DNA from: an uncultured Tolumonas sp.
GTDB lineage: Bacteria; Pseudomonadota; Gammaproteobacteria; Enterobacterales; Aeromonadaceae
Length of the DNA stretch: 64,000 bases
Assembly (NCBI RefSeq): GCF_963556105.2
Contig: NZ_OY829947.1
Coordinates: 25,743 to 89,742, forward strand
Direction of reading: 5' to 3'
Shown piece by piece: positions 3,618 to 36,783 of the stretch. Positions within the stretch are counted from its first letter, which is position 1; each line of letters begins with the position of its first letter. A model generated the notes under the pieces. The model saw only the letters and a program-made list of their open reading frames with translations. It made no database searches and was not told the DNA's origin. Position numbers and translations under genes: made by a program.

Positions 3618-4526
3618 ATGAAATATTTGGTTATCGATGTCGGCGGTTCAGCCATTAAATATGCGTTAATGGATAAACAGGCCGTGACGTTAGAAAAAGG
3701 TCAGGTACCAACGCCACCCGATAGTTTTGCGGAGTTTAGTGCCGAGATTATCCATTTATACAAAAAATATCAGGATCAAATAGCCGGAATTGCCTTCAGT
3801 TTGCCCGGCGTCATTGATAGCGAACAAGGTTACAGCATGACTGGCGGCTCACTAACCTATAACGATAAACGGAATATTGTTGCTGATATTCAGCAGCATT
3901 GCCCTGTGCCCATCACGATTGAAAATGATGCCAAATGCGCCGCATTAGCAGAAGCGTGGAAAGGGAGTCTAGTCGGTTGCCAAAATGGGGTCGTTGTGGT
4001 GTTAGGAACCGCTGTTGGCGGCGGTATCTTCCTGAATGGACAACTTTATAAAGGATCGCACTTTGCTGCCGGTGAACTCAGTTTTTTACTGACTGACAGC
4101 TGGCATGCGAAAGGCGAACCCTACCATTATTGGGGGCATGACGGTGGCAGCCGCGGCTTATGCCGTGCCGTTGAACACATCAAACGTCTGCCACCAAAAA
4201 GTGTGAATGGACAGCAAGTATTTGAATGGGCAAATGAGGGTGATGAGGACGTTTGTGAAGCACTAGACGCCTACACCTATCGTCTCGCTATGCAATTTTT
4301 CAACTTACAATCGCTCTTCGATCCTGATGTTATTGCCGTTGGCGGCGGCATCAGCGCACAACCGCTTCTATTGCAATATATTGAACAAAACTTAGTTTAT
4401 CTCGAACAACACCTGCCCATGCACCTGACAATTCCGAAGGTCGTGCGTTGCCATTTTATGAATGACGCCAATCTGGTCGGCGCATTACATCATCATTTGC
4501 AGATGACAGAGACACCCGTGCCTTAA
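3618..4526 (+). CDS. ROK family sugar kinase, beta-glucoside kinase-like
   Basis: Predicted cytoplasmic ATP-dependent kinase of the ROK family, 302 aa. The ATG at 3618 has GGAG 9 bases upstream. The N-terminal phosphate-binding motif reads VIDVGGSAIKYALMD. The catalytic region contains IENDAKCAALAEAW, and the glycine-rich segment VLGTAVGGGIF follows. LFDPDVIAVGGGIS near the C-terminus is typical. The zinc-binding CxCGxxGCxE motif of glucokinase/NagC-type members is absent (the region reads HDGGSRGLCRAVEH), as in the beta-glucoside kinase BglK group. It is flanked by hairpins and is probably monocistronic. The substrate is unproven; a phosphorylated or free glucoside or hexose is likely. Confidence 0.8.
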   Translation: MKYLVIDVGGSAIKYALMDKQAVTLEKGQVPTPPDSFAEFSAEIIHLYKKYQDQIAGIAFSLPGVIDSEQGYSMTGGSLTYNDKRNIVADIQQHCPVPITIENDAKCAALAEAWKGSLVGCQNGVVVVLGTAVGGGIFLNGQLYKGSHFAAGELSFLLTDSWHAKGEPYHYWGHDGGSRGLCRAVEHIKRLPPKSVNGQQVFEWANEGDEDVCEALDAYTYRLAMQFFNLQSLFDPDVIAVGGGISAQPLLLQYIEQNLVYLEQHLPMHLTIPKVVRCHFMNDANLVGALHHHLQMTETPVP

Positions 4527-4544
4527 GGCCATAAACCGCTCATC

Positions 4545-4569
4545 AGCCCTCTTGGTTAAAGAGGGCTTT
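4545..4569. terminator. Terminator between convergent ROK kinase and rmuC
   Basis: AGCCCTCTT (4545-4553) pairs with AAGAGGGCT (4559-4567) across a 5-base loop and is followed by TT on the plus strand. It lies between the two converging genes and could serve both. Confidence 0.7.
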
Positions 4570-5917
4570 ATTCCTCACCTACCTCTAATTGCGCCAGTTC
4601 GACCAATTCATCCGGTAGTTCTTTTTGTACCGAGACCCCCAAATCTTTAAATTCGGCGGCTTGTTTGATCAAATTGCCTTTACCGGAATACAGCTGTGAG
4701 AACGCTTTTTCGTAGCTGCCTTTGGCTTTATCGAGCTGTTTACCCACTTCCTGCATGCTAGTCAGGAAGTTATTCAATTTACTGTAAAAACGTTCTGCCC
4801 TATTTGCCAATTCCGCAGTATGTTTATTCTGATCTTCAAATCGCCACAGTTGACGCACGATGTTCAGACTGGTCAACAGCGTGGTGGGTGTTGCCACCAG
4901 CACATTGCGCTCAATCGCGCGCTGATAAAGCGTGTTATCAAATCGCAAGGCCTCTACATAAGCTGATTCGATCGGAATAAACATGATCACAACTTCTGGT
5001 GAATTCAGCCCCGGCAATTTGTAATAATCACGGTCAGCCAATTCATTGATGCGCGCACTCACTGCTTGTGCGTGTTCCGCTAAGGCTTGCTGACGCTCCA
5101 GATCATGTTCCGCATTCACATAACGGGTATAGGCAGCCAACGAAGTTTTAGCATCAATAATCAGGTGTTTTTGTTGGGGTAAATACACGATGGCATCGGG
5201 CCGTTGTCGCCCCTCGGCCGTAGAAAAGCTGACTTCGCGCTTATAATCGACACCTAAACGTAAACCGGAATTATCCAGCACATTCTCCAGCATCAACTCG
5301 CCCCAGTTGCCCTGCACTTTTTTCTGCCCTTGCAATGCATTGGTTAACTTATCGGCTTGATCGGTAATTTGGCGATTCAGATTTTGCAGATTAATCAGTT
5401 CGGCCCGCAGTTCACTGCGTTGTTTCAGCTCTTCAACATGAATGCTTTCAACTTTTTGCCGGAACCCCTGCATTTCGGTTTGTACCGGTTTAAGCAGGTG
5501 ATAAATATTTTCCTGATTCAGTTCTTTGAAAGCTTTGCCTTTTCGCTCCAAAATTTCATTAGCCAGATTTTCAAACTCGGTTTTCAACATCTCACGGCTA
5601 TTCGACAATTGGCGCAGTTGTTCATTGAAATGCAGCTGTTTTTCATTGAGCGATGTGCGAAGTTCCGCGTGTTGTCGTAACAATTCCGTATGTTTAAGCT
5701 GGAGCTGATTCAACTCCTGATTTCGTTGCCCCAACTGTTGTTCGCGCTCTTCGATACGTTCCAGCAATAACTCGCGTTCTGTTTCCAAACGCCCCATCTG
5801 CACATCTTGGTTAGCGATGATTTTTTGTGAACGGACATAAGATAAAAACCAGCCTGCAGTGCTAGCAAGCAAAACAGCCAACACTAATACTGGTAAGCCG
5901 AAAACCATCTCTGTCAT
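4568..5917 (-). CDS. rmuC: RmuC-like DNA recombination protein
   Basis: Protein of the RmuC family, 449 aa. RmuC limits inversions at short inverted repeats in E. coli and is thought to be a nuclease of the PD-(D/E)XK type. One N-terminal membrane segment (about residues 7-25) is followed by a long coiled coil (about 30-190, rich in E, Q, L and R) and the conserved C-terminal domain. That domain contains VQGNWGELMLENVLDNSGL, RPDAIVYLP and HLIIDAKTSLAAY, with the D-(x)n-DAK arrangement of the nuclease fold. The ATG at 5917 has AGGA 6 bases upstream. It ends against a shared terminator and appears monocistronic. Confidence 0.92.
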   Translation of the reverse strand: MTEMVFGLPVLVLAVLLASTAGWFLSYVRSQKIIANQDVQMGRLETERELLLERIEEREQQLGQRNQELNQLQLKHTELLRQHAELRTSLNEKQLHFNEQLRQLSNSREMLKTEFENLANEILERKGKAFKELNQENIYHLLKPVQTEMQGFRQKVESIHVEELKQRSELRAELINLQNLNRQITDQADKLTNALQGQKKVQGNWGELMLENVLDNSGLRLGVDYKREVSFSTAEGRQRPDAIVYLPQQKHLIIDAKTSLAAYTRYVNAEHDLERQQALAEHAQAVSARINELADRDYYKLPGLNSPEVVIMFIPIESAYVEALRFDNTLYQRAIERNVLVATPTTLLTSLNIVRQLWRFEDQNKHTAELANRAERFYSKLNNFLTSMQEVGKQLDKAKGSYEKAFSQLYSGKGNLIKQAAEFKDLGVSVQKELPDELVELAQLEVGEE

Positions 5918-6020
5918 TGTTATTCCTGTTTTATTAACTGCTTGCAGGCGGCATTATTAAGAATTGATCTGAATAAATCACGCGTTGATGTTTAGATTTA
6001 TCGCGATTCGAGAAATTAAT

Positions 6021-8486
6021 CTATTTCTTAAATAGATGATAGAACTTGCGGTCTTGTTTAAACATATGGCCTTTTACCAAGTCATCAATAATGAAATCGA
6101 TCAATTCCGCCATCGACATTTGTCTATGGATCGCGGCCAGATGTAGTATCTGTGCTCGATGCACTAGCTCTTGGTGTAATCGGGTATGCGCATCCAGCTC
6201 GTCGTATTTAAGCCCAGCAAGGATCCGTTCTTCGACGGCAAAATGTTTCGCTGTATGCGCCAATAGCTCCTGAAAAGCATCCTCAAAAGCAGCAGGATGT
6301 TCCTCTCTGTTTATTGCGGCATTAATCAATTCACTCGCCAGCTGGAATAACTCTTTATGCTCCAGATCAATCGTATATTCACCACTTTCATACGATTTTT
6401 TCCAATGCAGACGAATTAATGCATCCTCCGTCAAAATAGAACTATCCTGATTGCGTTTATAAACCCAAACTCGATTTCTACCCGACTCTTTGGCCTGATA
6501 CATGGCTGTATCGCCATTTTTCATTAGTTGTTTTTCCGTCAAGCCATGATCCGGATAAACAGCGATACCGATACAAGCCGAAATTTCGAGTAATTTCCCT
6601 TCGGGCATTTCAAATGGCTGATTTAATACATCACGAATTTTTTCAGCCACGGCCACTGCATCGCTGATCCGTCTAATTTCAGGTAATAGGACAATAAATT
6701 CATCACCACCAATTCGGGCCGCCGTATCTGATTCGCGCAAACAAGTTTCCATCCGTTGTGCGACAGCCTTTAACAACCAGTCACCCGTCTCATGACCATA
6801 ACTGTCGTTAACCGGTTTAAATTTATCCAGATCAATGAACATTAATGCTAGGCGAGATTCATTTCTTTTCGCCTGTGTAATTGCTTGCTCAAGACGATCG
6901 AGCAACAGACGACGATTGGGTAATTTGGTCAGCGAATCATAAAAAGCCAGATTGCGGATCACTTCTTCGGCTTTTTTCCGATCCGTGATATCCCGGCTAA
7001 TACCAATAATCGATGTCAGACGCCCTGCAGCATTAGCATGTAATGTTGTGACAACTTCCGTAGAGATGATATGACCATCTTTATGCGGCTGATCAATTTC
7101 AGTAACGCGGCGAGTATCACTATGATCACCGGAGTGCCAGGATTCGATAGCATTGACTAGGGATGTATAGGCTCGTTCGGAAGACTCCGGCGTCATAAAT
7201 TCTTCGGGCGATTGCTGCTTGACCTCTTCCACTGTAAAACCGCGCAAATTATATACAGACGGGCTGATATAGGTAAATTTGCCCGTAGCAATGTCCATCG
7301 TCCAGATAACATCCGCTGAATTTTCTGTAATAAAACGTAGATTGCGCTCGCTCTCTTCCATGTCGGCAATGGCAGACTGGCGGGCCTTACTTTCATTAAT
7401 GAGTTTTCTATTTAGATGTATAAAAACAAAAACCACCACCAAACAAAGGCCGCAAACAGACAAGACTACGGCAATGACGATATAGAGATGGCGAAGATCT
7501 TTTTGCTCAGGTTCTGGTTTATAGAGAAACCCTTGTAATGAAAAATGAGGAGGTAAAAGCCCTAATTCAGCATAGGTATCTGCAATATGTTGCCATCGAC
7601 CTGCATACATATATCCCAGCTCAATATTGTCATGCCCTAATAACGGGGCCATGTTTTTAGCTTCATAAAGCAAATGTGCTTTGTCGTCGCGATACCCGTA
7701 ATGAGAGATAATGACATCGGCGATTTCATCCGGGTGTTGCATCGCATAAACCCAACCTTTGATACTGGCTGCACGAAAAGCCTTCACGCGATCGGGGTGC
7801 GCCTGTATTTCCTGCTCAGTCGTAAATAAATTATCCCCGTAGAAATCAATACCGGCAGAACGAGGTGTAAACATCAGATAACGGAATGCACTTTTATCCA
7901 GATAATAAAGTTCGTCGGAACTGAAAGCGCTAATTGCATCAACTTTTCCATCGATCAAATCTCCAAAATCGAAACTATAGGGTAATAATTTTAATTGCCC
8001 TGTTGCCACCCCCTCTTTCTTTAAATAAGCCATCAATTCATCGGCATGGGGTTCCAGCATAATTCTTTTGCCGGCAAGATCATGAACAGACGAAATACCT
8101 GCATCTGCGCGCGCAATAAAAACCAGCGGGGAATGCTGAAAAATAGCCGCTAGTGCAACGACGGGTTTCCCTTGCTGTCGCGCTAATAATAATGAGCTGT
8201 TGCCAACACCATATTGTGCTCGTCCAGACATGACCTCACTGACGACTTCCATGCCGGGCTTTGAGTCCATGATGGTGACATCAAGACCAGCATCGCGGTA
8301 GTAACCTTTCATTTTGGCGGCATAATAACCAGCAAATTGGAATTGATGAAACCACCTTAGTTGTAAGGTGATTTTTTCCAGCGGAGCAGCCTCCGTCGAG
8401 AGCGACAGAGTCAAACATAAGAAGGCATACAGGAGATAACGCCCCCATTTGATAATCCCAGCATCTGTTGATGGAAGAGTCCGCAT
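6021..8486 (-). CDS. Solute-binding/PAS/GGDEF/hemerythrin signalling protein (diguanylate cyclase)
   Basis: Membrane-bound predicted diguanylate cyclase, 821 aa, with four modules. A signal segment (about 14-34) leads into a periplasmic NMT1/THI5-like solute-binding domain (about 37-315, with LQLRWFHQFQFAGYYAAKMKG). One membrane helix (about 332-354) precedes a cytoplasmic PAS domain (about 374-504) and a GGDEF domain. The GGDEF domain has an intact active site (GGDEF at 593-597) and the inhibitory RxxD site (RESD) five residues before it. A C-terminal hemerythrin domain (about 692-821) carries the di-iron ligand pattern: DLEHKE, HTAKHFAVEE, HTRLH and the final HxxxxD as HMFKQD. It could couple a thiamine-precursor-like ligand outside and oxygen or redox state inside to c-di-GMP output. 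The start lacks a strong ribosome-binding site. Confidence 0.9.
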   Translation of the reverse strand: MRTLPSTDAGIIKWGRYLLYAFLCLTLSLSTEAAPLEKITLQLRWFHQFQFAGYYAAKMKGYYRDAGLDVTIMDSKPGMEVVSEVMSGRAQYGVGNSSLLLARQQGKPVVALAAIFQHSPLVFIARADAGISSVHDLAGKRIMLEPHADELMAYLKKEGVATGQLKLLPYSFDFGDLIDGKVDAISAFSSDELYYLDKSAFRYLMFTPRSAGIDFYGDNLFTTEQEIQAHPDRVKAFRAASIKGWVYAMQHPDEIADVIISHYGYRDDKAHLLYEAKNMAPLLGHDNIELGYMYAGRWQHIADTYAELGLLPPHFSLQGFLYKPEPEQKDLRHLYIVIAVVLSVCGLCLVVVFVFIHLNRKLINESKARQSAIADMEESERNLRFITENSADVIWTMDIATGKFTYISPSVYNLRGFTVEEVKQQSPEEFMTPESSERAYTSLVNAIESWHSGDHSDTRRVTEIDQPHKDGHIISTEVVTTLHANAAGRLTSIIGISRDITDRKKAEEVIRNLAFYDSLTKLPNRRLLLDRLEQAITQAKRNESRLALMFIDLDKFKPVNDSYGHETGDWLLKAVAQRMETCLRESDTAARIGGDEFIVLLPEIRRISDAVAVAEKIRDVLNQPFEMPEGKLLEISACIGIAVYPDHGLTEKQLMKNGDTAMYQAKESGRNRVWVYKRNQDSSILTEDALIRLHWKKSYESGEYTIDLEHKELFQLASELINAAINREEHPAAFEDAFQELLAHTAKHFAVEERILAGLKYDELDAHTRLHQELVHRAQILHLAAIHRQMSMAELIDFIIDDLVKGHMFKQDRKFYHLFKK

Positions 8487-9019
8487 TGCCTGACCAATCC
8501 TTATGTCAGATGGTGATAAATACGGCTCACAATGCCGACACGTCTCGCTTCAGATTAGCATGCCCCCCAAATGACGCCAGCTGAAAATGACATTTTTAAC
8601 CCAACATAATTCTAATATATTGAAGTGACTCTGTTCTATTGCTCAACGACGGGTTCTGATTGTTTATTATTTAGTCATTACATTTATAAAATTAGAATTC
8701 ACTATTTAAGTTCATATTTAAAATATGCATAAAAAATAAATACCACTCATCATTTTGTTTTCTAATTATTATCACATGGATTTTATTGGAACCTTTATTT
8801 TTGTATTTATATCTTTTCTTTGCACTGCATCTAATTCCCTTTGCTTTAAAAAGTTTTGTAATTTTTAACTGATTTCTTATTTATTCGACCTTTGAAATAT
8901 TGGCGGCATTCAGCTGCTGCCGCGACAAATTCTAATAACCGGGAAATAAACCACTCTGGATGTCTGGTGTATTTCCTTTCCATGATAAGTCGTAAGATCT
9001 GTTTCATAGGGAGAACGAT
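8487..9019. other. Gene-free region before ppsA
   Basis: A 533-bp divergent gap, strongly AT-rich from about 8620 to 8880. It must hold the promoters of the GGDEF-hemerythrin gene and of ppsA. I see no convincing operator, RNA gene or small ORF. A short minus-strand frame (8846-9058) overlaps the ppsA start and is judged spurious. Confidence 0.6.
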
Positions 9020-11371
9020 GTGACTAACGTGCTTTGGTATAACCAACTCAACATGCACGATGTTGATCGGGTGGGAGGCAAAAATGCCTCTCTGGGCGAA
9101 ATGATCACGAATCTGGCGTCATTAGGGGTCTCAGTGCCGAATGGCTTTGCCACGACCGCGCAGGCGTTTAATAATTTTCTGGAACAAAGTGGGGTTAACC
9201 AGAACATTTATCAGTTGCTCGATAAAACGGATATCGACGATATCAATGCGCTGGCTGATGCCGGACGACAGATCCGCCAATGGATCATTGATACCCCCTT
9301 CCAACCCGAATTAGAACAGTCGATTCGCGAAGCCTATTTGCAGCTGGCAGATGGTCAGCCAGATGCTTCCTTTGCAGTACGTTCTTCCGCTACGGCAGAG
9401 GATATGCCGGATGCCTCCTTTGCCGGGCAGCAGGAAACCTTCCTTAATGTGCAGGGTATTGATGCGGTCATGATCGCCATCAAACATGTTTTTGCCTCTC
9501 TGTTTAACGATCGGGCCATTTCTTACCGTGTACATCAAGGGTATGACCATCGAGGCGTTGCTCTTTCTGCCGGTGTACAACGTATGGTGCGTTCCGATTT
9601 AGCCGCTGCTGGTGTCATGTTCACGCTGGATACCGAGTCTGGTTTTGATCAGGTGGTGTTTATCACCTCTGCCTATGGGCTGGGCGAAATGGTGGTGCAA
9701 GGGGCAGTCAACCCCGATGAATTTTACGTGCATAAACCAACACTGAATAATCACAAACCGGCGATTGTGCGCCGCACCATTGGTTCAAAAAAGATCCGCA
9801 TGGTGTATGCGGCCAGTAAAGAACACGGCAAACAAGTACAGATTGAAGATGTGCCTGCCGAGCTGAGTCAGCATTTCAGCCTGACGGATGCCGAAGTGGA
9901 ACAATTGGCCAGACAGGCATTATTGATCGAGCAGCACTACGGTCGCCCGATGGATATCGAGTGGGCCAAAGATGGTCACACCAGCAAACTGTATATCGTA
10001 CAGGCTCGGCCAGAAACCGTGCGCTCGAACGAACAGGTGATGGAGCGTTATCAGCTGACTTCGCGCGGCAAAGTGCTGATCGAAGGCCGTGCGATTGGCC
10101 AGCAAATTGGTGCCGGGCCGGTCAAAATCATCCACAACATCAGCGAAATGGATCAGGTATTACCGGGCGATGTGCTGGTTACTGATATGACCGATCCGGA
10201 CTGGGAGCCGATCATGAAACGGGCATCCGCGATTGTCACGAACCGGGGTGGCCGTACCTGTCATGCCGCGATTATTGCGCGCGAACTGGGTATTCCAGCC
10301 GTGGTAGGCTGCGGTAATGCCACAGAGATTTTGCCCGCAGGACAAAACGTGACAGTTTCATGTGCCGAAGGCGACACGGGTTTCGTTTATCAGGATCTGC
10401 AAGATTTCAGCGTGCGTCGTTTGCCGGTGGATGAAATGCCAGCGTTACCGCTAAAAATCATGATGAACGTCGGTAACCCTGATCGCGCCTTTGATTTTGC
10501 CCGTTTACCCAATGATGGTGTGGGTCTGGCGCGACTCGAATTTATCATCAACCGTATGATCGGTGTGCATCCGAAAGCCCTACTCGAATTTGATCAACAG
10601 ACACCTGTGTTACAGCAACAGATCCGCGAGTTGATGCTAGGCCATGATGATCCGGTTGAGTTTTACATCAGCCGTCTGGCAGAAGGCATTTCTACCCTCG
10701 CCGCCGCATTCTGGCCAAAACGCGTGATTGTGCGGCTGTCTGATTTCAAATCGAACGAATATGCCAATTTGCTGGGTGGGGAGCGTTACGAACCGCAGGA
10801 AGAAAACCCGATGCTGGGCTTCCGTGGTGCCGGTCGTTATATCTCATCAACGTTCCATGACTGTTTTACGCTGGAATGTGAAGCAGTGAAACGGGTACGC
10901 AATCGCATGGGGCTAACCAATATCGAACTGATGGTGCCGTTTGTGCGAACGGTGGCGCAGGCAAAAGCCGTGATTTCGCAGTTGGAAACCGAAGGGCTGA
11001 AACGCGGCGAGAATGGTCTGAAAATCATCATGATGTGTGAGATCCCATCGAATGCCTTGCTGGCTGAACAATTCCTGCAACATTTTGATGGCTTCTCTAT
11101 CGGCTCCAATGACATGACACAGTTAACGCTGGGCTTAGATCGTGATTCCGGTTTGGTATCAGAGCTGTTTGATGAGCGTAACGATGCGGTCAAATCCTTG
11201 CTGGCAATGGCAATTGCGGCGGCAAAAAAACAGGGTAAATATGTCGGCATTTGCGGTCAGGGCCCGTCAGATCACGCTGATTTTGCGCTGTGGTTGAAAG
11301 AACAGGGGATCGATAGTTTATCGCTGAACCCGGATACTGTGGTGCAAACCTGGTTGGCATTAGCGGAATAG
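9020..11371 (+). CDS. ppsA: Phosphoenolpyruvate synthase
   Basis: Converts pyruvate, ATP and water to PEP, AMP and phosphate, the entry step of gluconeogenesis from pyruvate or lactate. 783 aa, close to the usual 790. The GTG start at 9020 has GGGAG 8 bases upstream. The N-terminal nucleotide-binding domain shows [20 protein letters not shown]. The swivelling phosphohistidine domain carries [19 protein letters not shown] with the catalytic histidine at residue 415. The C-terminal TIM barrel ends in [17 protein letters not shown] with the active-site cysteine at 745. The threonine regulated by PpsR is in the same GGRTCHA motif, two residues before the histidine. Its regulatory kinase gene ppsR is convergent just downstream. 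Confidence 0.97.
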
Positions 11372-11385
11372 CACGTCGTCAGTTT

Positions 11386-11421
11386 GCCACCACATTACCT
11401 CTATGATGTGGTGGCTTTTTT
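11386..11421 (+). terminator. Rho-independent terminator of ppsA
   Basis: GCCACCACAT (11386-11395) pairs with ATGTGGTGGC (11406-11415) and is followed by six T. It begins 14 bases after the ppsA stop and abuts the stop codon of the convergent ppsR. Confidence 0.88.
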
Positions 11422-12241
11422 ATTTCTGCCGCTGCAGATGCATGATTTCCATCAGTTTAGCCGTGATCTCTTCCACCGAATAATTCGTGGTGTTGAGATA
11501 AGGGATCTGATGTTTACGATAGAGCGCTTCCACTTCAGCCAACTCCATTCGGCATTGTCGCAACGATGCATAACGACTGTTTTCACGCCGCTCCTGCCGG
11601 ATCGCCGATAACCGCTCTGGGTCTATCGTTAAACCAAAAATCCGGTTTTTATACGGTAACAACGCCGACGGTAGTTGCAAGTGATCCATATCATCGGCAA
11701 TAAACGGGTAATTCACCGCATATACACCAAATTGCAGCGCCAGATAAAGGCTGGTTGGCGTTTTTCCGGTGCGGGATACACCTAATAAGATCACCTGTGC
11801 TAATTCCAGATTGCGCAGGGAAATGCCATCGTCATGCGCCAGCGTATAATCTATCGCAGCAATACGGGCGTCATATTTCAGCATGTTGTTTTCGGTCAGC
11901 CCGTAAGGTCGGCGCTGCGATGACGCAATGGGCTCGATACCCAACTCCTGCTGTAACGGTGCAATCAATGACTGCACCACATCCTGACAAAAACCGTGAC
12001 TAGCCAAAATGATCTCTCGCACCGGTTCCGAGACAATCGAGAAAAATACCAGCGGTTTGCTACCTGATTGTAGATACATGTCGTTAATTTTTTGACAGAC
12101 CTCAGTGGCTTTACTGACGTTATCAACAAAAGGAATGGTGTAAAAATCAGGCTCTAGCGGAAATTGCGACAACACCGCATGCCCTAACACTTCGGCGGTA
12201 ATGGCAGTGCCATCAGAGATATAAAATACTGAGCGTTTCAT
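11420..12241 (-). CDS. ppsR: PEP synthase regulatory protein (bifunctional kinase/pyrophosphorylase)
   Basis: DUF299 family protein, 273 aa. It inactivates PEP synthase by ADP-dependent phosphorylation of a threonine and reactivates it by phosphate-dependent removal. The ATG at 12241 gives the family N-terminus [17 protein letters not shown]; the frame extends upstream but without support. A P-loop reading [11 protein letters not shown] lies near residue 153. ppsA and ppsR face each other with their stop codons 49 bp apart. In E. coli they are neighbours too but, as I recall, divergent. The pairing makes the functional assignment strong. Confidence 0.93.
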
Positions 12242-12328
12242 ATATACCCCATGCTCATAATTACGATGCAATGGGATATAACATGAAAAATAATCACGCG
12301 TATGAAAACAATAATTCCAATATTAAGA

Positions 12329-12353
12329 AGCCATCATTTCTGATGGCTTTTTT
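12329..12353. terminator. Terminator hairpin between asmA and ppsR
   Basis: AGCCATCA / TGATGGCT with a TTTC loop, followed by a T-run on the plus strand and preceded by the matching A-run. On the minus strand, the direction of asmA transcription, the tail reads CTTCTTAATATT, weaker but still U-rich. It probably ends asmA. Confidence 0.6.
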
Positions 12354-12378
12354 CTCGCGTTAATCAAACAGGTCAGCC

Positions 12379-14586
12379 TCAGAATAATTTCTTCAGCCCC
12401 TTTGATAAGGCATCACCGGCTTTTTGTTCCAGTTTTTGCTGCACCTTCTGTTTTTTCTCTTCCAGTTTGGCACCAGCGTTTTCTTTTAATGCCGCGGTCA
12501 AATCAAGAGAATATTTAGGTGCAGAGGTAGGGCCTTTAATACGGATAGGAATGGTGACTCCGTGTAATTTATCTCGGTCAGCACCTTCCTGCCCTTTACT
12601 GGTATTGACCAATGCCGCTTTCAGCAGATAGTTAATGTCATCTGCTTTTAGATTCACATCCCCTTCGCCACTTACTCGCAATAACGGTGATTTCATTATT
12701 AAGTCTTTATTCGTAGCAACACCTTGGTTGAATAAAATTGATGCCGTTAACTCAGTGAAATCAGTTTTTTCCACATTACTGGTCGCAACAGCTTGTTCCC
12801 CGCCTTTCAAACCAGACAAGGCCGCTTTAGCATCACGAATAGTTTTGGCGACGTTGATTCCACGCCATGCGCCATCTGTAACACGGGTGTTTAAGTTACC
12901 GGTGAGGCTATTTTTTAATGCGCTGGTATCCCCCCCCTGCATCGCCAAACTGCCAGCCACTGTTGCCCTGCCCTCTATTTTTTCAAAACCAGCAAACTGT
13001 TTCAGTAAGGCATAAATATCAACACCCGCAATGTTGGGTTTCACGCTAATGCGTGGGCTAGAAGTCGTCGTTGCTGAACCGCTCGCAGCGATATCGCCAC
13101 CAAACGCTTTCAAACTTAATGCAGGGATTGAAAGCAAACCGTTTTTGATGTTGAACAGCAATGACAGATCTTTGGCATCGAGGGCAGCATACTTCAGTTG
13201 CCCTAGATTAACCTGACCATCCATATTCAGTGCATTTAACCCTGAAAGATCGATTTTTGCTGGTGGTGTTTTATTGCCTGCACTCTGCTCTGTATTCTCT
13301 TTCGCGGTTGAATTTGCAGATTTAGATGCGGTCATATAACGATTCAGATCTAACGACTGGGCTTTCAGATCAAATCGAATAGCGGGATTACTGAACCCTT
13401 TTACATCGGCATTAAGCGCTAGCGGATTCTGATCGAGCGAACCGGCCAATGCCGTGTTGATATGCTGTGCCTTCACTTCGGCAGCAAGTTTGCCGGTAAG
13501 ATCTACCGGCAAGGCTTTCATATCACCATTGGTAACATCACCCTTAATAATCAACTGCGGCAAACTCAAAGCTTGTGCTGCTAATTTGAAAGCTAAAGGG
13601 CCACTAACCGCCAATTTTACTGCTTGTGTATCCTGGGTGGCGTTCAAATCAAATTTAACCGTTTTGGCATTAACTTGCTGGTTATCACCAGACAAACCTT
13701 CCAATTTGAAATTGCTATCAATTTTTCGGGTTGCACCGTTTAATGAAGCTGAAAAACTAATGGTATCCGCACTGGTATTTTTATCGGTTACATTTAATTT
13801 AGGTGCCGTCAGCGTCAGTTTGAATGTCTCTTTACCCAGTTTGCCATCCAGTACGTTATACAAGCCATCCAATAGTAATTGCCCTGTTTTCTTATCAAAG
13901 TTCACCCGATCTAATTTGGTGTTCACTTGCAGATCTAAGACTGGTGCAGTGCTTTGTAAGCGAGAGCTGAAATCAATATGTCCGGCACTTTGCGCCGTGA
14001 TGGTGTCACCAAACAAAGACAGGTCGCTTAACATCACTTGCTGACCAGATTGCTGATCAAGATACTTAAAACTGCTATTGGCGATATTGAATTGTGCAAG
14101 ATGAAAATCAGAACCTGAAGATGTGGTATTCGTTGCCTGGTTTGCTCCCGTGACATCAGGGAGAGCTTTATTACCCGCTGGTTTGTTCGTGTCAGCCAGA
14201 TCAGCAAAATTAAATTGCCCGGTTTTATCCTTGATCAGATTGATCGTGGCACCTTGAATATCCACTTCATTGATAATGAATTTTTTCGATAACAATGGCC
14301 AAAACTGCATTGTCACGCGTGCATTTGAGACATGAGCAAACAGTGCGTCGGCGTTACGTTCTGATAAATTGACATCAGATAAAGCAAGGCCTGGTTTGGG
14401 AAATAGCGACAAACTGATGGGACCATTGAATTTTAATGTACGCTGTTTTTCAGCCTTCACCCATGCTTCTAATCTTGGTTTCAGGGAATTAGCATCGAAA
14501 GTAGCTGTGATATAAAACACTGAGCCCGCAAGTAAAACGACAACACTACCAGCGGAATAAAGCGAGTATTTGGTGATTTTGTTCAT
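12379..14586 (-). CDS. asmA: AsmA family protein
   Basis: Large envelope protein of the AsmA group, 735 aa (E. coli AsmA is 617). This family is linked to outer-membrane assembly and, in its larger members, to phospholipid transfer between membranes. One N-terminal membrane anchor (about residues 7-28) is followed by a periplasmic body rich in beta-strand repeats. The conserved start SLKPRLEAWVKAEKQRTLKF leads to ISLSLFPKPGLALSDVNLSE, and the conserved C-terminal part includes GVDIYALLKQFAGFEKIEGR and NLNTRVTDGAWRGINV. The last 40 residues are a lysine/glutamine-rich helix. A run of eight C on the plus strand (12930-12937) falls inside the gene without breaking the frame. Monocistronic by layout. 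Confidence 0.9.
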   Translation of the reverse strand: MNKITKYSLYSAGSVVVLLAGSVFYITATFDANSLKPRLEAWVKAEKQRTLKFNGPISLSLFPKPGLALSDVNLSERNADALFAHVSNARVTMQFWPLLSKKFIINEVDIQGATINLIKDKTGQFNFADLADTNKPAGNKALPDVTGANQATNTTSSGSDFHLAQFNIANSSFKYLDQQSGQQVMLSDLSLFGDTITAQSAGHIDFSSRLQSTAPVLDLQVNTKLDRVNFDKKTGQLLLDGLYNVLDGKLGKETFKLTLTAPKLNVTDKNTSADTISFSASLNGATRKIDSNFKLEGLSGDNQQVNAKTVKFDLNATQDTQAVKLAVSGPLAFKLAAQALSLPQLIIKGDVTNGDMKALPVDLTGKLAAEVKAQHINTALAGSLDQNPLALNADVKGFSNPAIRFDLKAQSLDLNRYMTASKSANSTAKENTEQSAGNKTPPAKIDLSGLNALNMDGQVNLGQLKYAALDAKDLSLLFNIKNGLLSIPALSLKAFGGDIAASGSATTTSSPRISVKPNIAGVDIYALLKQFAGFEKIEGRATVAGSLAMQGGDTSALKNSLTGNLNTRVTDGAWRGINVAKTIRDAKAALSGLKGGEQAVATSNVEKTDFTELTASILFNQGVATNKDLIMKSPLLRVSGEGDVNLKADDINYLLKAALVNTSKGQEGADRDKLHGVTIPIRIKGPTSAPKYSLDLTAALKENAGAKLEEKKQKVQQKLEQKAGDALSKGLKKLF

Positions 14587-15353: not shown

Positions 15354-15386
15354 CAGAAACCTTAGATAAACAGACAGACCGGTAGT

Positions 15387-30114: not shown

Positions 30115-31221
30115 ATGAGCCTTGCAGATAAAGTCCTTGCGGTAAATGACGATTTACCAATTCGCACTGATAAACCAGTCCACTCCGGTAAAGTACGCAG
30201 CGTGTACTGGTTGACTGCTGAAGACAGCGCCCGTTTGATCCGTGAAAAAGGTTACGATGTGCCTGCCGATGCGCCGCTGGCCATTATGGTGATCAGTGAT
30301 CGTATCTCTGCTTTCGATTGCATTTGGCAAGGTGAAGATGGCTTAAACGGCGTACCTGGTAAAGGTGCTGCGCTTAACGCTATTTCTAATCACTGGTTTA
30401 AGCTGTTCAAACAACAAGGCCTGGCTGATAGCCATATTCTGGATATCCCGCATCCCTTTGTTTGGATCGTGCAAAAAGCACGTCCAGTGATGGTTGAAGC
30501 GATTGCTCGCCAATACATCACGGGTTCGATGTGGCGCGCTTACAGCAAAGGCGAACGTGAATTCTGTGGTATTACGCTGCCTGAAGGGCTGCAAAAAGAG
30601 CAAAAACTGCCGGAAACACTGATCACCCCGTCCACTAAAGGCATTCTGCGGGGCCTGGAAGGTGTACCAGAAGCAGATGACGTTAACGTTTCCCGTGCCG
30701 ATCTGGAACGTCATTATAAAGCCTTCAATTTCTTGAGCATTGCCGATATCGATCAGTATGAAAAATTACTGAAAGAAGGCTTCAATGTGATCAGCGATGC
30801 CTTAGCCGCGCTGGATGAAGTCTTTGTTGATACCAAATTTGAATTTGGTTACGTCAAAGATGCCGCCGGCAACGACAAGCTGATCTACATGGACGAAGTT
30901 GGTACCCCAGATAGTTCCCGTATTTGGGATGGTGCCGCTTATCGCGAAGGTAAGATCATTGAGCAATCGAAAGAAGGTTTCCGCCAATGGTTGCTGAACC
31001 ACTTCCCAGATCCGGATATTCTGCTCAATAAAGACCGTATGCCGGAACGTGCCGCACTGGCCCGCGACAACAAGTTGCCGGAAGCCGTTATGATGGATAT
31101 TTCCCGCACTTATGTCGGTATTGCGGAAAAGATCATCGGTCAGAAGCTGCATTTAAGCGAAAATCCGAAACAGGAAATCATCGATATTCTGCGCGAACAG
31201 TATCAACTGATTGCTGAGTAA
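30115..31221 (+). CDS. purC: SAICAR synthase (phosphoribosylaminoimidazole-succinocarboxamide synthase)
   Basis: Joins aspartate to CAIR using ATP in purine biosynthesis. 368 aa, the long form seen in Vibrio, Shewanella and Aeromonas, not the 237-aa form of E. coli. The ATG at 30115 has AAAGGA 7 bases upstream. Conserved motifs are [66 protein letters not shown] and [14 protein letters not shown]. The last is the nucleotide- and metal-binding region (DEV.TPDSSR). Monocistronic, ending at a small hairpin. Confidence 0.96.
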
Positions 31222-31236
31222 GTCGATTGAATCATG

Positions 31237-31258
31237 GGGAGCGTAAGCTCCCTATTTA
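31237..31258 (+). terminator. Hairpin after purC
   Basis: GGGAGC (31237-31242) pairs with GCTCCC (31247-31252) around a GTAA tetraloop and is followed by TATTTATA. A short but probable terminator 15 bases after the purC stop. Confidence 0.6.
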
Positions 31259-31270
31259 TATCAGCGAAAA

Positions 31271-31284
31271 CACCTTAATTGGTG
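31271..31284. promoter_or_regulatory. NtrC-like inverted repeat with an altered spacer
   Basis: CACC-TTAATT-GGTG, flanked by A and C-A, resembles NtrC enhancer sites (GCACC-N5-GGTGC) but has one extra spacer base and lacks the first G. It lies about 215 bp upstream of the sigma-54 promoter at 31485. The rest of this 315-bp gap holds no recognised feature. Confidence 0.3.
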
Positions 31285-31484
31285 CATTCGAATCACCTCC
31301 CGCATCAAATTATTTTCCGCCGCCAACAGTTCCCCCTACCAACCACCAATAATGGGCAATCCCTGTCTTTAGCAAGCCCCATTATCGTGCAAGCTTTCGT
31401 ACGCACAGGCAGAAGAGGCATATATCTTAATGATTTATAACGATGTAGCCGATATTAACCTTAAAATTGAGATTCAAGCTGCTC

Positions 31485-31500
31485 TGGCATGACCCTTGCG
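31485..31500 (+). promoter_or_regulatory. Sigma-54 (RpoN) promoter of the ATP-grasp/Anbu operon
   Basis: TGGCATG-ACCC-TTGCG matches the -24/-12 consensus TGGCACG-N4-TTGCW at nearly all positions, with exactly 10 bases between the invariant GG (31486-31487) and GC (31498-31499). The predicted start is near 31511, about 26 bases before the first gene's ATG. Sigma-54 use suggests nitrogen-related or other enhancer-protein control. Confidence 0.65.
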
Positions 31501-31536
31501 TTAGTTATATAACAAGGAAGTCCCGAGGAGACAGTT

Positions 31537-32974
31537 ATGCTGAAAGTCCACCTACCGGGTCCCGGGTTATACGATGAAATGTTACAACCTGACGGACAAT
31601 GCCGAAGCCATTACGATACCTACTGGCAATGGCTGACCCGAACTGACGAAAAAACGATTAAACAGAAACAAGAAGAAGCAAATCTGCTGTTCCACCGAGT
31701 TGGCATCACGTTCAACGTTTACGGTGAAGAAGACGGCGCAGAACGACTTATCCCTTTCGATAATATCCCACGCATCATTCCTGCCAGCGAATGGCAACAG
31801 CTTGATAAAGGCATTCGCCAACGCGTTACCGCGCTTAATGCATTCTTACATGACATCTATCACGAAACAGCACATCTTGAAAGCCGGCGTTATTCCTGCG
31901 GCACAAGTGCTGGCTAACGCGCAATACCAGCCCTGCATGCAAGGCGTAGATCTGCACCGCAACACCTATGCGCACATCACGGGTGTAGACATGATCCGCA
32001 ACCATGATGGCAGTTATTACGTGCTGGAAGATAATCTGCGTACGCCTTCTGGCGTCTCTTACATGCTGGAAAACCGCAAGATGATGATGCGGTTATTTCC
32101 TGAATTGTTCCGCCAGCAACGGATTGCACCGGTAGAACGTTACCCAGCGTTACTGCTGCAAACATTACGCGAAAGCAGCCCCGTCGATAACCCTAACGTG
32201 GTGGTCATGACGCCGGGTCGCTTCAATAGCGCTTATTTTGAACACAGCTTCTTAGCACAACAGATGGGTGTCGAACTGGTTGAAAGCGCCGATCTGATGG
32301 TGCGTGATGGCAAAGTGTTTATGCGCACCACCACTGGCCCACAACGTGTGGATGTCATTTATCGTCGCATCGATGATGCGTACCTCGATCCGCTAGCGTT
32401 TAACCCGACTTCACTGATCGGAGTACCAGGTTTACTCTCCGCTTATCGCTCTGGTGGCGTGGTGCTAGCCAATGCGATTGGTACCGGTGTCGCCGACGAT
32501 AAATCGATCTACCCGTATGTGCCGAACATGATCAAATTCTATCTGGATGAAGAGCCGATCTTACACAACGTACCGACTTGGCAATGCCGTGAGCAAGACG
32601 ATCTGCGTTATGTGCTGGAGCATTTAGATGAACTGGTGGTGAAAGAGGTTCATGGTGCCGGTGGTTATGGCATGTTGATCGGCCCATGCGCCAGCAAAGC
32701 AGAAATTGCCAAATTCCGCGAATTATTGAAAGCGCGCCCCGATAACTATATTGCGCAACCGACCCTTTCGCTTTCTACCTGCCCGACGTTTGTTGAGTCT
32801 GGGGTGGCGCCGCGTCACATTGATTTACGCCCATTTGTCTTAAGTGGTAAAGAAATCCGGCTGGTCCCTGGTGGTTTAACGCGCGTTGCGTTGACCGAAG
32901 GCTCGCTGGTTGTGAACTCCTCTCAGGGTGGTGGCACAAAAGATACCTGGGTTATGGAGGACAACTTATGTTAA
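31537..32974 (+). pseudogene. Circularly permuted ATP-grasp protein, interrupted by a frameshift
   Basis: Member of the circularly permuted ATP-grasp type 2 family (DUF404/DUF407), predicted to form amide bonds between peptides and amino groups. The first frame from ATG 31537 (GAGGAG upstream) reads normally to HDIYHE, then leaves the family sequence and stops at 31917. The family sequence resumes in the next frame as QHILKAGVIPAAQV and continues to 32974 (LEDNLRTPSGVSYMLENR, VIYRRIDDAYLDP, VVKEVHGAGGYGMLIGP). One extra A in the AAA at 31865-31867 explains the break. Restored length is about 478 aa, normal for the family. Its stop overlaps the next gene by 7 bases. Everything else is intact, so sequencing error or a very recent mutation are both possible. 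Confidence 0.85.
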
Positions 32975-33894
32975 GTCGTACCGCAAGTGAACTTTATTGG
33001 ATGGCCCGTTTTCTGGAACGTGCCGAAAACACCGCGCGTATGCTGGATGTTACGCAAACCATGTCGCTGATGCCGTTGATTGATGCCGACAACAGTGAAT
33101 TGATTGCGCCCCTCACCATTACCGGCACCCATGAACCGTTCATGGCGCGCTACAAAAATGTCAGCATGGATAATTTGCTGGCGTTTTTTGGGCTGGATGA
33201 AGAGAACCCAAGCAGCATCTTTAGTTGCATTCGCATGGCCCGAGATAACGCACATTCCGTGCGCGGCAAAATCCCATCTGAAGTATGGGAAAGCATCAAC
33301 GCGACCTGGCTGGAAATTAAAGCCTTACGCAAAAAAGGCATTAGTCATACCAGCGCACAGGCCTTCCTTGATTGGGTAAAAGAGCGCTCGCACCTGTTCC
33401 GTGGTGCCACGTTCGGCACAATCATGCGCGGTGATGTACTGTGGTTTATCCGCCTCGGCACATTCATTGAACGAGCGGACAATACCGCCCGTATTCTGGA
33501 TGTGAAATATCAGGTCATCCAGGAAGACGAAGATAGCGTGCGCGAGTTTTACCGCTGGAACGCGTTACTGCGCTCCGTCGGCGCGTATGAATCACATCAG
33601 ACGTTGTATAAAGGTTTATCACGCCAATCGGTCGCAGAGCTGCTGATCTTACGCAATGAAGTACCACGCTCGCTGCGCGCCAGCCTTGAAGAAGTTGAGC
33701 AATTATTGGCGCTTATTGAAGGTAATGCCGGCCATGAACCACGTCGTCTGACCACGGTGCTCAACGCAAACCTACGGTTTGGCAAAATTGAAGAAGTCTT
33801 CGCGGAAGGTGTTCATCAATATCTGACCCGATTCCTGAATGACATCGGTGCCATTGGACAAAGCATCCACAGAGCCTATCTGGAGGCCTTATGA
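32968..33894 (+). CDS. Alpha-E domain protein (DUF403)
   Basis: All-alpha protein of 308 aa that almost always accompanies circularly permuted ATP-grasp genes. Family hallmarks are the start MLSRTASELYWMARFLERAE with NTARMLDV, then RDNAHSVRGKIPSEVWESIN, and the internal repeat FIRLGTFIERADNTARILDV that mirrors the N-terminus. Its biochemical function is unknown; it is thought to work with the ATP-grasp enzyme. It overlaps the upstream gene by 7 bases and the downstream transglutaminase gene by 4 (ATGA), indicating coupled translation. Confidence 0.92.
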   Translation: MLSRTASELYWMARFLERAENTARMLDVTQTMSLMPLIDADNSELIAPLTITGTHEPFMARYKNVSMDNLLAFFGLDEENPSSIFSCIRMARDNAHSVRGKIPSEVWESINATWLEIKALRKKGISHTSAQAFLDWVKERSHLFRGATFGTIMRGDVLWFIRLGTFIERADNTARILDVKYQVIQEDEDSVREFYRWNALLRSVGAYESHQTLYKGLSRQSVAELLILRNEVPRSLRASLEEVEQLLALIEGNAGHEPRRLTTVLNANLRFGKIEEVFAEGVHQYLTRFLNDIGAIGQSIHRAYLEAL

Positions 33895-34691
33895 AATTAA
33901 CCATCGATCATCATACTCAATATCATTATGCCGAGATGGTACGTCACAGCACTCAATATCTGCGCCTGACGCCACAAACCTCGCAACGCCAACGCATTGT
34001 TAGCTGGCAATTAGATCTGCCTGAACAAGCCACCATTACGACAGATGGTTACGGTAACATATTGCATGTATTGAGCCTCGACACCCCGCATGAAACCATT
34101 CAGATCCATGCGCACGGTGAAGTCGAAATTCTGGAAGACGAATCAGATGATGCCATAGAGCTCATTTCGCCACTGACGTATCTGCGTAGTTCATCGTTGA
34201 CACATGCGACTGCACCAATACGTTTATTAGCACAACAACATCACGATGACAGCCAGCCACTCGTTGGTTTGCAGTCGCTGATGCAAGCCATTCTGGAAAA
34301 AATGCCTTATACCCCCGGTGCCACCGATGTTTCATTTTCTGCCGATGAAGCATTAGCCGCCAGAAATGGCGTGTGTCAGGATCACACACATGTATTTCTG
34401 GCTTGTTGCCGCAGCGTTGGCATTCCTGCCCGTTATGTCAGCGGTTATCTTTACACACCTGACAGTGCGCATGTCGCTATGCATGCCTGGGCTGAAGTGT
34501 GGCTGAACGATCGTTGGAATACCTTCGATATCACCAATAATACCTGCTCACCTAACCAGCATTTGAAATTGGCAGTCGGGATGGATTATCTGGATGCCTG
34601 CCCAGTCCGCGGTGTACGTTTTGGGGGCGGTAGTGAAGCCATGCAGGCAAAAGCGGCGGTAAATTTACTCGACGTGCAACAGCAACAATGA
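33891..34691 (+). CDS. Transglutaminase-like cysteine protease family protein
   Basis: Cytoplasmic protein of 266 aa with an N-terminal beta domain (LTIDHHTQYHYAEMVRHSTQ) and a transglutaminase-like core. The catalytic triad is visible: Cys162 in RNGVCQDHTH, His198 in VAMHAWAEVW and Asp213 in FDITNN. In this operon type it is thought to be a peptidase or amidase that reverses or processes products of the ATP-grasp enzyme; that is inference from gene context. The start codon overlaps the alpha-E gene stop. Confidence 0.92.
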   Translation: MKLTIDHHTQYHYAEMVRHSTQYLRLTPQTSQRQRIVSWQLDLPEQATITTDGYGNILHVLSLDTPHETIQIHAHGEVEILEDESDDAIELISPLTYLRSSSLTHATAPIRLLAQQHHDDSQPLVGLQSLMQAILEKMPYTPGATDVSFSADEALAARNGVCQDHTHVFLACCRSVGIPARYVSGYLYTPDSAHVAMHAWAEVWLNDRWNTFDITNNTCSPNQHLKLAVGMDYLDACPVRGVRFGGGSEAMQAKAAVNLLDVQQQQ

Positions 34692-34735
34692 TAGAAAGCT
34701 GTCACGCTGATGATTGAAGTATTAAGGGAAGCGAA

Positions 34736-35452
34736 ATGACTTATTGTGTTGCCATGCGTCTTGCTGAGGGTGTGGTTTTTGCGTCAGATTCACGCACAAA
34801 TGCGGGCGTTGACCATATTGCCATCTTCAAAAAATTACACGTTTTTGAAAAAGATGATCGTGTATTGGTGCTGCAAAGTGCCGGTAACCTGGCAACAACA
34901 CAAAGTGTGCTGAGCTTATTACGCCAACGGATCAATCAAGATTGCCCGAACCTGATGAACGTGAGTTCGTTATATGACGCTGCCGCATTAATTGGCAATG
35001 TCATTCGGGAAGTGATCCAGCGTGACGGCGGACAACAACAAGGCCATATCAACTTCGGCTGTAATATTCTGTTGGGTGGCCAAATTAAAGGCGACATGCA
35101 TCGGTTATATCACATCTACCCTGAAGGCAACTTCATCGAAGCAACCGAAGATACTCCCTATTTCCAGATTGGTGAGAGTAAATATGGCAAACCGATCATC
35201 GATCGGGTGCTGAATTTTAACACTTCGCTGGAAACTGCTATGCAGTGTGCGTTGATCTCCATCGACTCAACACTGCGTAGCAATCTGTCGGTTGGCTTGC
35301 CGCTGGATGCGCTGATTTATCCGAAAGATTCGTTCAGTGCAGCTCAACAATATCGCATTACCGAAAAACACCCTCACTTTCTGGCTTTACGTCAGGCTTG
35401 GGGTGAAGGCCTGCAAAAGATATTCAGCCAACTCCCACCGTTTGATCTTTAA
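34736..35452 (+). CDS. Anbu, proteasome-like peptidase
   Basis: Ntn-hydrolase of the bacterial proteasome-homologue group (Anbu/BPH), 238 aa. After loss of Met1 the N-terminal nucleophile would be Thr2 (MTYCVAMRLAEGVVFASDSR). The segment TNAGVDHIAIFKKLHVF supplies the conserved Asp and Lys region near the active site. Further motifs are VLQSAGNLATTQSV and HINFGCNILLGGQ. AAGGGA precedes the ATG, and the gene follows the transglutaminase gene after 44 bp. It closes the four-gene set of ATP-grasp, alpha-E, transglutaminase and Anbu known from other proteobacteria. Its stop codon overlaps the stop of the convergent paeA gene, with no terminator in between. Confidence 0.93.
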   Translation: MTYCVAMRLAEGVVFASDSRTNAGVDHIAIFKKLHVFEKDDRVLVLQSAGNLATTQSVLSLLRQRINQDCPNLMNVSSLYDAAALIGNVIREVIQRDGGQQQGHINFGCNILLGGQIKGDMHRLYHIYPEGNFIEATEDTPYFQIGESKYGKPIIDRVLNFNTSLETAMQCALISIDSTLRSNLSVGLPLDALIYPKDSFSAAQQYRITEKHPHFLALRQAWGEGLQKIFSQLPPFDL

Positions 35453-36783
35453 ACTGATTTTTTATCGCTATTGCCAGATGCAATCACACTGTTTGTATCT
35501 GGCGTAGCCACCCGCGTTACCAGTAACTGATCGATTTTGTAACTATCAATATCAACTACTTCAAATTTATAACCGGAATGAATGACATAGTCGGTACGTT
35601 TCGGAATTTTACGCAGCATAAACATCATAAATCCGGCGATCGTCTCGTAGTTTTCATACTCGGGAAACTCTTCAATACTCAGTACGTGCATGACATCATC
35701 GATTGGTGCGATACCGTCGATCAGCCATGAATTATCATCACGCTGCACGATTTGTTCTTCCTGATGTTGGTTCACCAAATCGCCCATCAAGGTGTTCATG
35801 ATGTCATTCAACGTGAGAATACCGACCACCAGCGCATATTCGTTCAGAATAACGGCAAAATCTTCACGCGAACCTTTAAAGCCTTCCAGCGCTTCCGTTA
35901 GTGTCAGGGTGTCAGGAATGATCAACGGTGTTTGGATCAACTTATCATCGGTCAGCACAATCGGCTGTTTATTCAACACCCGCAGCAAAATATCTTTGGA
36001 ATCAACATAACCCAGCACGGTATCAATGTTGCCATCACACACCAGAAACTTGGAGTGTGGATGTTCCGCAATGATTTGTTTGATTTGCTCTTCAGTTTCC
36101 CGGCGCTCGAAATAGATGATGCCGTCACGGGAAGTCATGATTGAAGGAACCGTTTTAGAGTCCAACTCAAACACGTTTTCAATCAAATGATGTTCCTGTT
36201 CACGCAATACCCCTGCCTGCGCACCTGCAGTCATCATCGCGTAGATATCATCAGGCGTAATCACTTCTTTATGCGTGGTCGGCAGATTAAATAAACGGAA
36301 CAAAACATTTGCTAACCCATTGAATATCCATACCAATGGTTTAAACACCGCCACACAAAACAACATCGGAGTAACAATGTGGGTTGCAATACGCTCTGGA
36401 GACATCATCGCTAATCGTTTCGGGATCAAATCAGCAAATAAGATAAACACTGACGTCACCACCACAAACGAAATCGCAAAACTGATGCTATTTAACAGCG
36501 GCGGCTCAACCCAATAAATCAGGATCTGCGACACCGATGGCGTTAAAGCCGATTCACCAATAATACCGCCTAAGATCGCGACTGCATTCAACCCGATTTG
36601 AACAACGGTAAAAAAATGCCCCGGCTGTTCCTGCAGCGCAATCACCTTAGAGGCTTGCTCACTGCCAGCCTCAGCCAGTTGCTGTAATTTCAGTTTACGT
36701 GAGGCAGCAAGCGCTATTTCTGAAACGGAAAAAAAAGCACTGGCAACAATCAATGCGGCAATAGCCAAAAAACTGTTGGTCAT
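35449..36783 (-). CDS. paeA: CNNM/CBS-domain transporter, PaeA (YtfL) type
   Basis: Inner-membrane protein, 444 aa, very close to E. coli YtfL, which was renamed PaeA for polyamine (cadaverine/putrescine) export. The ATG at 36783 matches the family N-terminus (MTNSFLAIAALIVASAFFSV); the frame extends to 36831. A DUF21/CNNM membrane domain (about 1-190) contains SEIALAASRKLKLQQLAE and FFTVVQIGLNAVAILGGIIG. Two CBS domains follow (about 205-325, with MTSRDGIIYFERR and DTLTLTEALEGFKGSREDFA). The C-terminal CorC/HlyC domain (about 345-425) contains YENYETIAGFMMFMLRKIPK. Polyamine export is inferred from E. coli. The stop shares 4 bases with the convergent Anbu gene. Confidence 0.9.
   Translation of the reverse strand: MTNSFLAIAALIVASAFFSVSEIALAASRKLKLQQLAEAGSEQASKVIALQEQPGHFFTVVQIGLNAVAILGGIIGESALTPSVSQILIYWVEPPLLNSISFAISFVVVTSVFILFADLIPKRLAMMSPERIATHIVTPMLFCVAVFKPLVWIFNGLANVLFRLFNLPTTHKEVITPDDIYAMMTAGAQAGVLREQEHHLIENVFELDSKTVPSIMTSRDGIIYFERRETEEQIKQIIAEHPHSKFLVCDGNIDTVLGYVDSKDILLRVLNKQPIVLTDDKLIQTPLIIPDTLTLTEALEGFKGSREDFAVILNEYALVVGILTLNDIMNTLMGDLVNQHQEEQIVQRDDNSWLIDGIAPIDDVMHVLSIEEFPEYENYETIAGFMMFMLRKIPKRTDYVIHSGYKFEVVDIDSYKIDQLLVTRVATPDTNSVIASGNSDKKSV

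Follow-up and report, generated by a model that had tools for sequence, protein, structure and literature searches.

The Anbu operon and its upstream region

The window analyzed here, a stretch of DNA of 64,000 nucleotides, carries an operon of four genes that ends with the gene for the proteasome-like protein Anbu and is preceded by a match to the -24/-12 promoter element of sigma-54. It lies on a contig of 89,742 bases in a genome (G000) of 3,999,787 bases in 6 contigs; the nearest named loci come from Tolumonas assemblies and the genome is therefore referred to as Tolumonas-like. The genes are encoded on a single strand in the order ATP-grasp, Alpha-E, transglutaminase, Anbu, as in Anbu operons, with purC as the upstream neighbor on the same strand. 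The genes and the predicted regulatory elements are as follows:

31270..31286, forward strand: NtrC-like repeat named in an earlier note on this DNA, a possible accessory site (8/14 letters)
31342..31358, forward strand: distal predicted NtrC box ACCACCAATAATGGGCA (9/14 letters; about -143 from the GG of the -24 element)
31375..31391, forward strand: proximal predicted NtrC box AGCCCCATTATCGTGCA (11/14 letters; about -110 from the GG)
31484..31500, forward strand: sigma-54 -24/-12 element CTGGCATGACCCTTGCG (GG at 31486-31487, GC at 31498-31499, spaced GG-N10-GC)
31537..31917, forward strand: N-terminal piece of a circularly permuted ATP-grasp gene, ending early past a frame break near 31865
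31865..32974, forward strand: rest of the ATP-grasp gene in a different frame (open reading frame listed from 31700)
32968..33894, forward strand: Alpha-E protein (PF04168, E 6.4e-90)
33891..34691, forward strand: transglutaminase-like protein (Pfam; Cys162, His198 and Asp213 invariant in 8 aligned sequences)
34736..35452, forward strand: Anbu, proteasome-like (Pfam; Thr2, Asp18 and Lys33 invariant in 10 aligned sequences)

The earlier note had described a tightly overlapping set of a likely peptide ligase, an alpha-helical partner, a transglutaminase-like peptidase and a proteasome-like peptidase. The Pfam domains found in the predicted proteins (CP_ATPgrasp, Alpha-E, Transglut_core and Proteasome) agree with these assignments. 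The overlap is limited to the first three genes, Anbu being separated from the transglutaminase gene by 44 bases, and the note had overlooked the break in the ATP-grasp frame. The invariant Cys162, His198 and Asp213 of the transglutaminase-like protein are presumably its Cys-His-Asp triad. Without the initiator Met, the invariant residues of Anbu become Thr1, Asp17 and Lys32, and thus include the N-terminal Thr of the proteasome superfamily; passages of PMC6376114 name the same catalytic residues (N-terminal Thr, Asp17 and Lys32(33)). Among solved structures, Anbu matches 5nyw best (E 8.9e-109) and 5lox next, and the intact ATP-grasp protein of a relative matches 3n6x, labeled by its depositors as a putative glutathionylspermidine synthase. 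No match to a solved structure was found for the Alpha-E protein at E 0.1.

A sigma-54 element conserved in position

The element CTGGCATGACCCTTGCG agrees at 13 of 14 letters with YTGGCAYRNNNYTTGCW, which we take to be the sigma-54 consensus and used for scoring. The Escherichia coli sigma-54 motif in the portion of PMC8743547 used here agrees with YTGGCAYRNNNYTTGCW. Transcription starting about 12 bases downstream of the element, near 31511, would begin 26 bases before the ATG at 31537, and the element, its spacing and this distance are all as the earlier note had given them. Within the window, a loose sigma-54 consensus found 40 sites against 46.97 expected, while a stricter one (at most one mismatch) found 4 against 2.31 expected; across the whole genome the stricter consensus found 79 sites, compared with 41 for the pattern read backwards.

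An element with 13 or 14 matching letters lies 50-60 bases ahead of the start codon in 22/23 orthologous upstream regions from Tolumonas, Aeromonas, Alcanivorax-like bacteria and others of the order, and in 17/18 distinct regions once five near-copies are dropped. When the upstream regions of nine loci with the element were shuffled, the score was reached in 0/200 shuffles for eight of them and in 1/200 for the ninth. The element falls inside a conserved block in an alignment of seven Tolumonas regions, and TGGCACA and TTGC are retained in all nine sequences of an Aeromonas-like alignment. A single sigma-54 site proves little; at the sequence level it is the conserved place in relatives that makes this one more than a chance match. 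We therefore judge the element at 31484-31500 to be real because its position is conserved among relatives, and not by its letters alone.

A sigma-70 promoter for the operon was rejected, as a simple scan of 31200-31560 gave no sigma-70-like match. A promoter of its own for Anbu was rejected in the same way: the scan of 34650-35600 for sigma-70-like sites was negative, and all 72 upstream regions of Anbu score below 13 for sigma-54. A sigma-54 match with one mismatch at 34750 falls within the Anbu gene.

Anbu is present in 84 of the 369 genomes of a class-level sample. From the Anbu-positive genomes we took 58 Anbu regions and two further regions around ATP-grasp genes unlinked to Anbu (L160 and L161). 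An ATP-grasp gene lies upstream of Anbu on the same strand in 21 loci, nine of which have a 13-14/14 element at -45 to -65; these nine all belong to the Tolumonas, Aeromonas and Alcanivorax-like group. The element as a general feature of Anbu operons was rejected, since it is found there in 0/12 of the remaining loci (L173 having been scored on only about 130 upstream bases). At other positions in these distant loci, L122 scores 13/14 at -198, L156 12/14 at -135 and L136 12/14 at -144. Where the ATP-grasp gene is opposite in strand to Anbu, 2/14 loci score 13 (L138 at -136 and L146 at -69), and in the genomes with unlinked Anbu, G322 and G206, strong elements precede the ATP-grasp gene (L160, 14; L161, 13). 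The predicted sigma-54 switch belongs to part of the Anbu operon family and not to all of it. The earlier note had proposed a comparison of orthologous operons for the -24/-12 element; conservation holds in Aeromonadaceae and Alcanivorax-like bacteria and fails in the 12 linked operons of more distant bacteria.

Even close relatives carry the operon patchily: counting the present genome, 7 of the 11 from Tolumonas have Anbu. In one genus, g4, which near-copies of L006 and L007 suggest is Aeromonas, only 6 of 23 genomes gave an ATP-grasp orthologue.

Paired NtrC boxes upstream of the element

Upstream sequences were lined up on the GG of the -24 element and scored with TGCACCANNNTGGTGCA, the published E. 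coli NtrC box (PMC8743547, in the portion used). The profile was built from 14 Aeromonadaceae sequences, with the five near-copies and L062 left out, and three Alcanivorax-like sequences were profiled separately. Two main peaks appeared, at -110 (mean 10.71/14) and at -143 (mean 9.21/14), against a mean over the offsets of 5.59 and a standard deviation of 0.96. These correspond to the boxes at 31375-31391 and 31342-31358, whose spacing of 33 base pairs (bp) is roughly three turns of the helix. Counting ties, the proximal box ranks first in 13/14 sequences; in 12/14, one of the four highest-scoring boxes is the distal one, at -142 to -145. With permuted palindromes on the same related sequences, 0/419 reached the single peak and 0/419 reached the pair. 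The three Alcanivorax-like sequences have an NtrC box at -78 with 11 or 12 of 14 letters.

Within the window there are two NtrC matches with at most three mismatches, the proximal box being one of them, where 4.24 are expected by chance; within Tolumonas the proximal box scores are moderate (10-11/14). As the scores in a single window are unremarkable, the weight rests on the place and conservation of the boxes. The operon thus carries conserved NtrC boxes upstream of a -24 element, the arrangement of an NtrC regulon member, although this signal is weak if the window is taken alone. The earlier note had singled out the repeat at 31271, which does sit at a third, lower profile peak (-218, mean 7.86); as the main NtrC site it was rejected, being only the third best upstream of the element and less conserved than the boxes at 31375 and 31342. 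The case for NtrC is stronger than the note had it, mainly owing to these two boxes.

The genome contains one sigma-54 (rpoN) gene and one ntrC match above the curated cut-off, out of 70 profile matches; besides ntrC, 10 more matches to the ntrC profile have E < 1e-60. The glnA and ntrB genes were confirmed by NCBIfam. The glnA promoter of the same genome (L190, G000:C2:615500-620000) served as a positive control and gave a sigma-54 element of 13/14 and, at -81, -102 and -115, boxes scoring 11, 10 and 10. A GCACC-N5-GGTGC palindrome lies before ntrB in the same region.

A frame break in the ATP-grasp gene

Coverage of the ATP-grasp profile PF14403 is split over two frames, positions 1-39 being covered by the open reading frame at 31537-31917 and positions 33-374 by that at 31700-32974. 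The break reflects a one-base difference in length near 31865 relative to G003, G009 and the further relatives shown, and leaves no intact ATP-grasp frame in this assembly. The frame is open in each of the six further Tolumonas genomes that match strongly, at 500-524 residues compared with 445 here. A programmed frameshift was set aside as an explanation, given the single open frame of the relatives. Of the 56 G003 genes that have a counterpart on the whole contig, 3 are split here; the reverse comparison gives 1/53, namely the same ATP-grasp gene. Because three of the 56 compared genes show such breaks, an assembly error is likely to explain the ATP-grasp break rather than decay; if the break were real, the synthetic step of the operon would be lost.

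Two other frame differences were seen on the contig. One, near 45024, lies at a run of seven C in a 574-residue gene that is a single open frame in G003 and G009; the other, near 15371, sets a 213-residue gene apart from those two genomes in its first 26 residues only.

A second ATP-grasp/Alpha-E system

A second, larger cluster is present in the genome (L078, G000:C1:1944500-1962500), with genes at 4428-13648 of the locus and a sigma-54-like element at 4301-4316. Its genes encode an ATP-grasp protein, an Alpha-E protein, a 1114-residue protein, an 846-residue ATP-grasp/Alpha-E protein and a 298-residue protein resembling transglutaminases. The sigma-54-like element of this system (L072 in the window's genome) is common to the Tolumonas loci L070 and L071 and weaker in L069, and its best NtrC boxes score 9 to 11 of 14 at unlike places across the loci. 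One could speculate, though we think it unlikely, that both ATP-grasp/Alpha-E/transglutaminase systems belong to a nitrogen-starvation regulon and, once induced, jointly make and then dismantle an amide-linked store of nitrogen, Anbu being the hydrolase that releases it.

Proposed mechanism and alternative explanations

Published work links such operons to nitrogen. In the passages used, PMC5666114 and PMC6376114 describe the four genes as an operon, give a proposed role in peptide synthesis or tagging (citing Iyer 2009), and report, citing Hervas 2008, that Anbu rises in nitrogen-limited Pseudomonas putida or under nitrogen starvation. The parts of PMC7801951 used assign P. putida PP_2685-2688 to NtrB/NtrC, and its table gives an 11- to 15-fold induction of PP_2686-2688 in the wild type on nitrogen limitation. 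COG3484, a proteasome-type protease, is listed in a predicted sigma-54 regulon in the portion of PMC12316311 used.

We propose that, upon nitrogen shortage, phosphorylated NtrC would bind the boxes at 31342-31358 and 31375-31391, and that a DNA loop would bring it to sigma-54 RNA polymerase waiting at 31484-31500. The transcript, starting near 31511, would span all four genes, from ATP-grasp to Anbu. The ATP-grasp protein together with Alpha-E would then make an amide or peptide product, which the transglutaminase-like enzyme and Anbu might trim or recycle, so that nitrogen is stored or released. What the sequence shows is the conserved DNA signals and the two regulator genes, rpoN and ntrC; binding, looping and transcription are inferred, and we hold this regulatory part with high confidence. 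Sigma-54/NtrC nitrogen control as an explanation of the four-gene operon as a whole we consider probable, at a confidence somewhat lowered for the steps that rest on inference. The role in amide storage or recycling is tentative, being drawn from the protein families, the published context and the predicted nitrogen switch. The earlier note had likewise pointed to sigma-54 control and nitrogen limitation, a suggestion that the conserved element, the paired NtrC boxes, the glnA signals and the induction in P. putida support well at the level of predicted sites; the peptide tag or storage peptide it had envisaged may be the product, and is close to the hypothesis of Iyer 2009 as cited in the passages of PMC5666114 and PMC6376114.

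Several observations weigh against nitrogen control through sigma-54 and NtrC. Among the orthologous upstream regions, the one exception (L062, from another family of the order) lacks the element, and L053, counted among the 22, has GT instead of GC at -12; the 12 other same-strand loci, one of them from Dehalococcoidia, lack a 13-14/14 element at -45 to -65. L061 has neither NtrC box and L005 lacks the distal one, and the proximal box of the window is weak alone, 9/200 shuffles of its own region equaling its score under a slightly altered consensus. In this assembly the ATP-grasp frame is interrupted. In the published passages, Anbu expression is described as constitutive and moderate in amount (PMC5666114), and tests found neither Anbu peptidase activity nor a stable complex of the operon proteins (PMC6376114). 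In the data of PMC7801951 used, PP_2686-2688 keep a 14- to 20-fold induction when rpoN is mutated, although the urt genes, also assigned to NtrB/NtrC there, stay induced in the mutant too; PP_2685, which encodes the proteasome-like protein, rises only 1.12-fold in the wild type. The persistence of induction in the mutant (PMC7801951, Table 2) sits oddly with NtrC acting through sigma-54.

That the -24/-12 match arose by chance and a sigma-70 promoter drives the operon is highly improbable: the window has no clear excess of such matches, which would fit chance, but position and sequence are conserved in nearly all the orthologous upstream regions, and the scan for a sigma-70-like promoter was negative. 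Sigma-54 might instead transcribe the operon with another enhancer-binding protein as main activator and a signal other than nitrogen. The 10 further ntrC-profile matches in the genome offer candidates for such an activator, and the proximal box in Tolumonas is only moderate; against this, both conserved positions carry the NtrC palindrome published for E. coli (PMC8743547), permuted palindromes fall short of the conserved peaks, and three orthologous genes of the P. putida operon respond to nitrogen in the data used, so that we regard this as improbable. The operon could also be decaying in this strain, with a true mutation in the ATP-grasp gene and a promoter that is a relic, as the one-base difference that sets it apart from its relatives and the shorter frame would suggest. 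The surplus of split genes here over the reverse comparison fits assembly indels, however, and the promoter is intact while the later three proteins are 96-98% identical to their L003 counterparts; we consider decay unlikely, although it deserves more weight than either of the other two alternatives. Control of the operon by sigma-54 and NtrC is the explanation that we retain.

The substrate of Anbu is not known in the cited papers; the predicted switch suggests when to look for it, namely during nitrogen starvation, with NtrC as a handle.

Comparison with known systems

Among the papers listed by a literature search, none concerned the Tolumonas or Aeromonas promoter, which is weak evidence of absence as subscription journals are poorly covered. 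The Yersinia bercovieri Anbu operon has the identical four-gene set, for which a crystal structure and ATP-grasp biochemistry are reported in PMC6376114; in contrast to the present work, the passages used describe no promoter. In Burkholderia cenocepacia H111, a cluster of DUF404/DUF407, DUF403 and transglutaminase-domain genes (I35_5080-5083) is among the common sigma-54 and NtrC targets, according to the parts of PMC5491218 used. It differs in having a large transglutaminase protein, and the word proteasome is absent from the main text of that paper; it resembles the second system of the window's genome (L078). The operon of P. putida KT2440, PP_2685-PP_2688 (Hervas 2008 and 2009, as cited in PMC5666114, PMC6376114 and PMC7801951), is of the Anbu type with a transglutaminase gene, is assigned to NtrB/NtrC and has three of its four genes strongly induced by nitrogen limitation, but its induction survives rpoN mutation and its proteasome-like gene barely rises (PMC7801951, in the data used).

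The closest regulatory likeness is within the same genome. The glnA promoter also combines a sigma-54 element with several upstream NtrC boxes, and its -81 and -115 boxes are 34 bp apart, compared with 33 bp at the Anbu operon; it differs in that its boxes lie about 30 bp closer to the promoter and include an additional box at -102. E. coli glnAp2 is another promoter in which several NtrC boxes precede a sigma-54 element. The link to nitrogen was already known in Pseudomonas and Burkholderia; new here is a conserved nitrogen switch, predicted from sequence, in Aeromonadaceae and Alcanivorax-like bacteria, with exact enhancer and promoter positions for another lineage.

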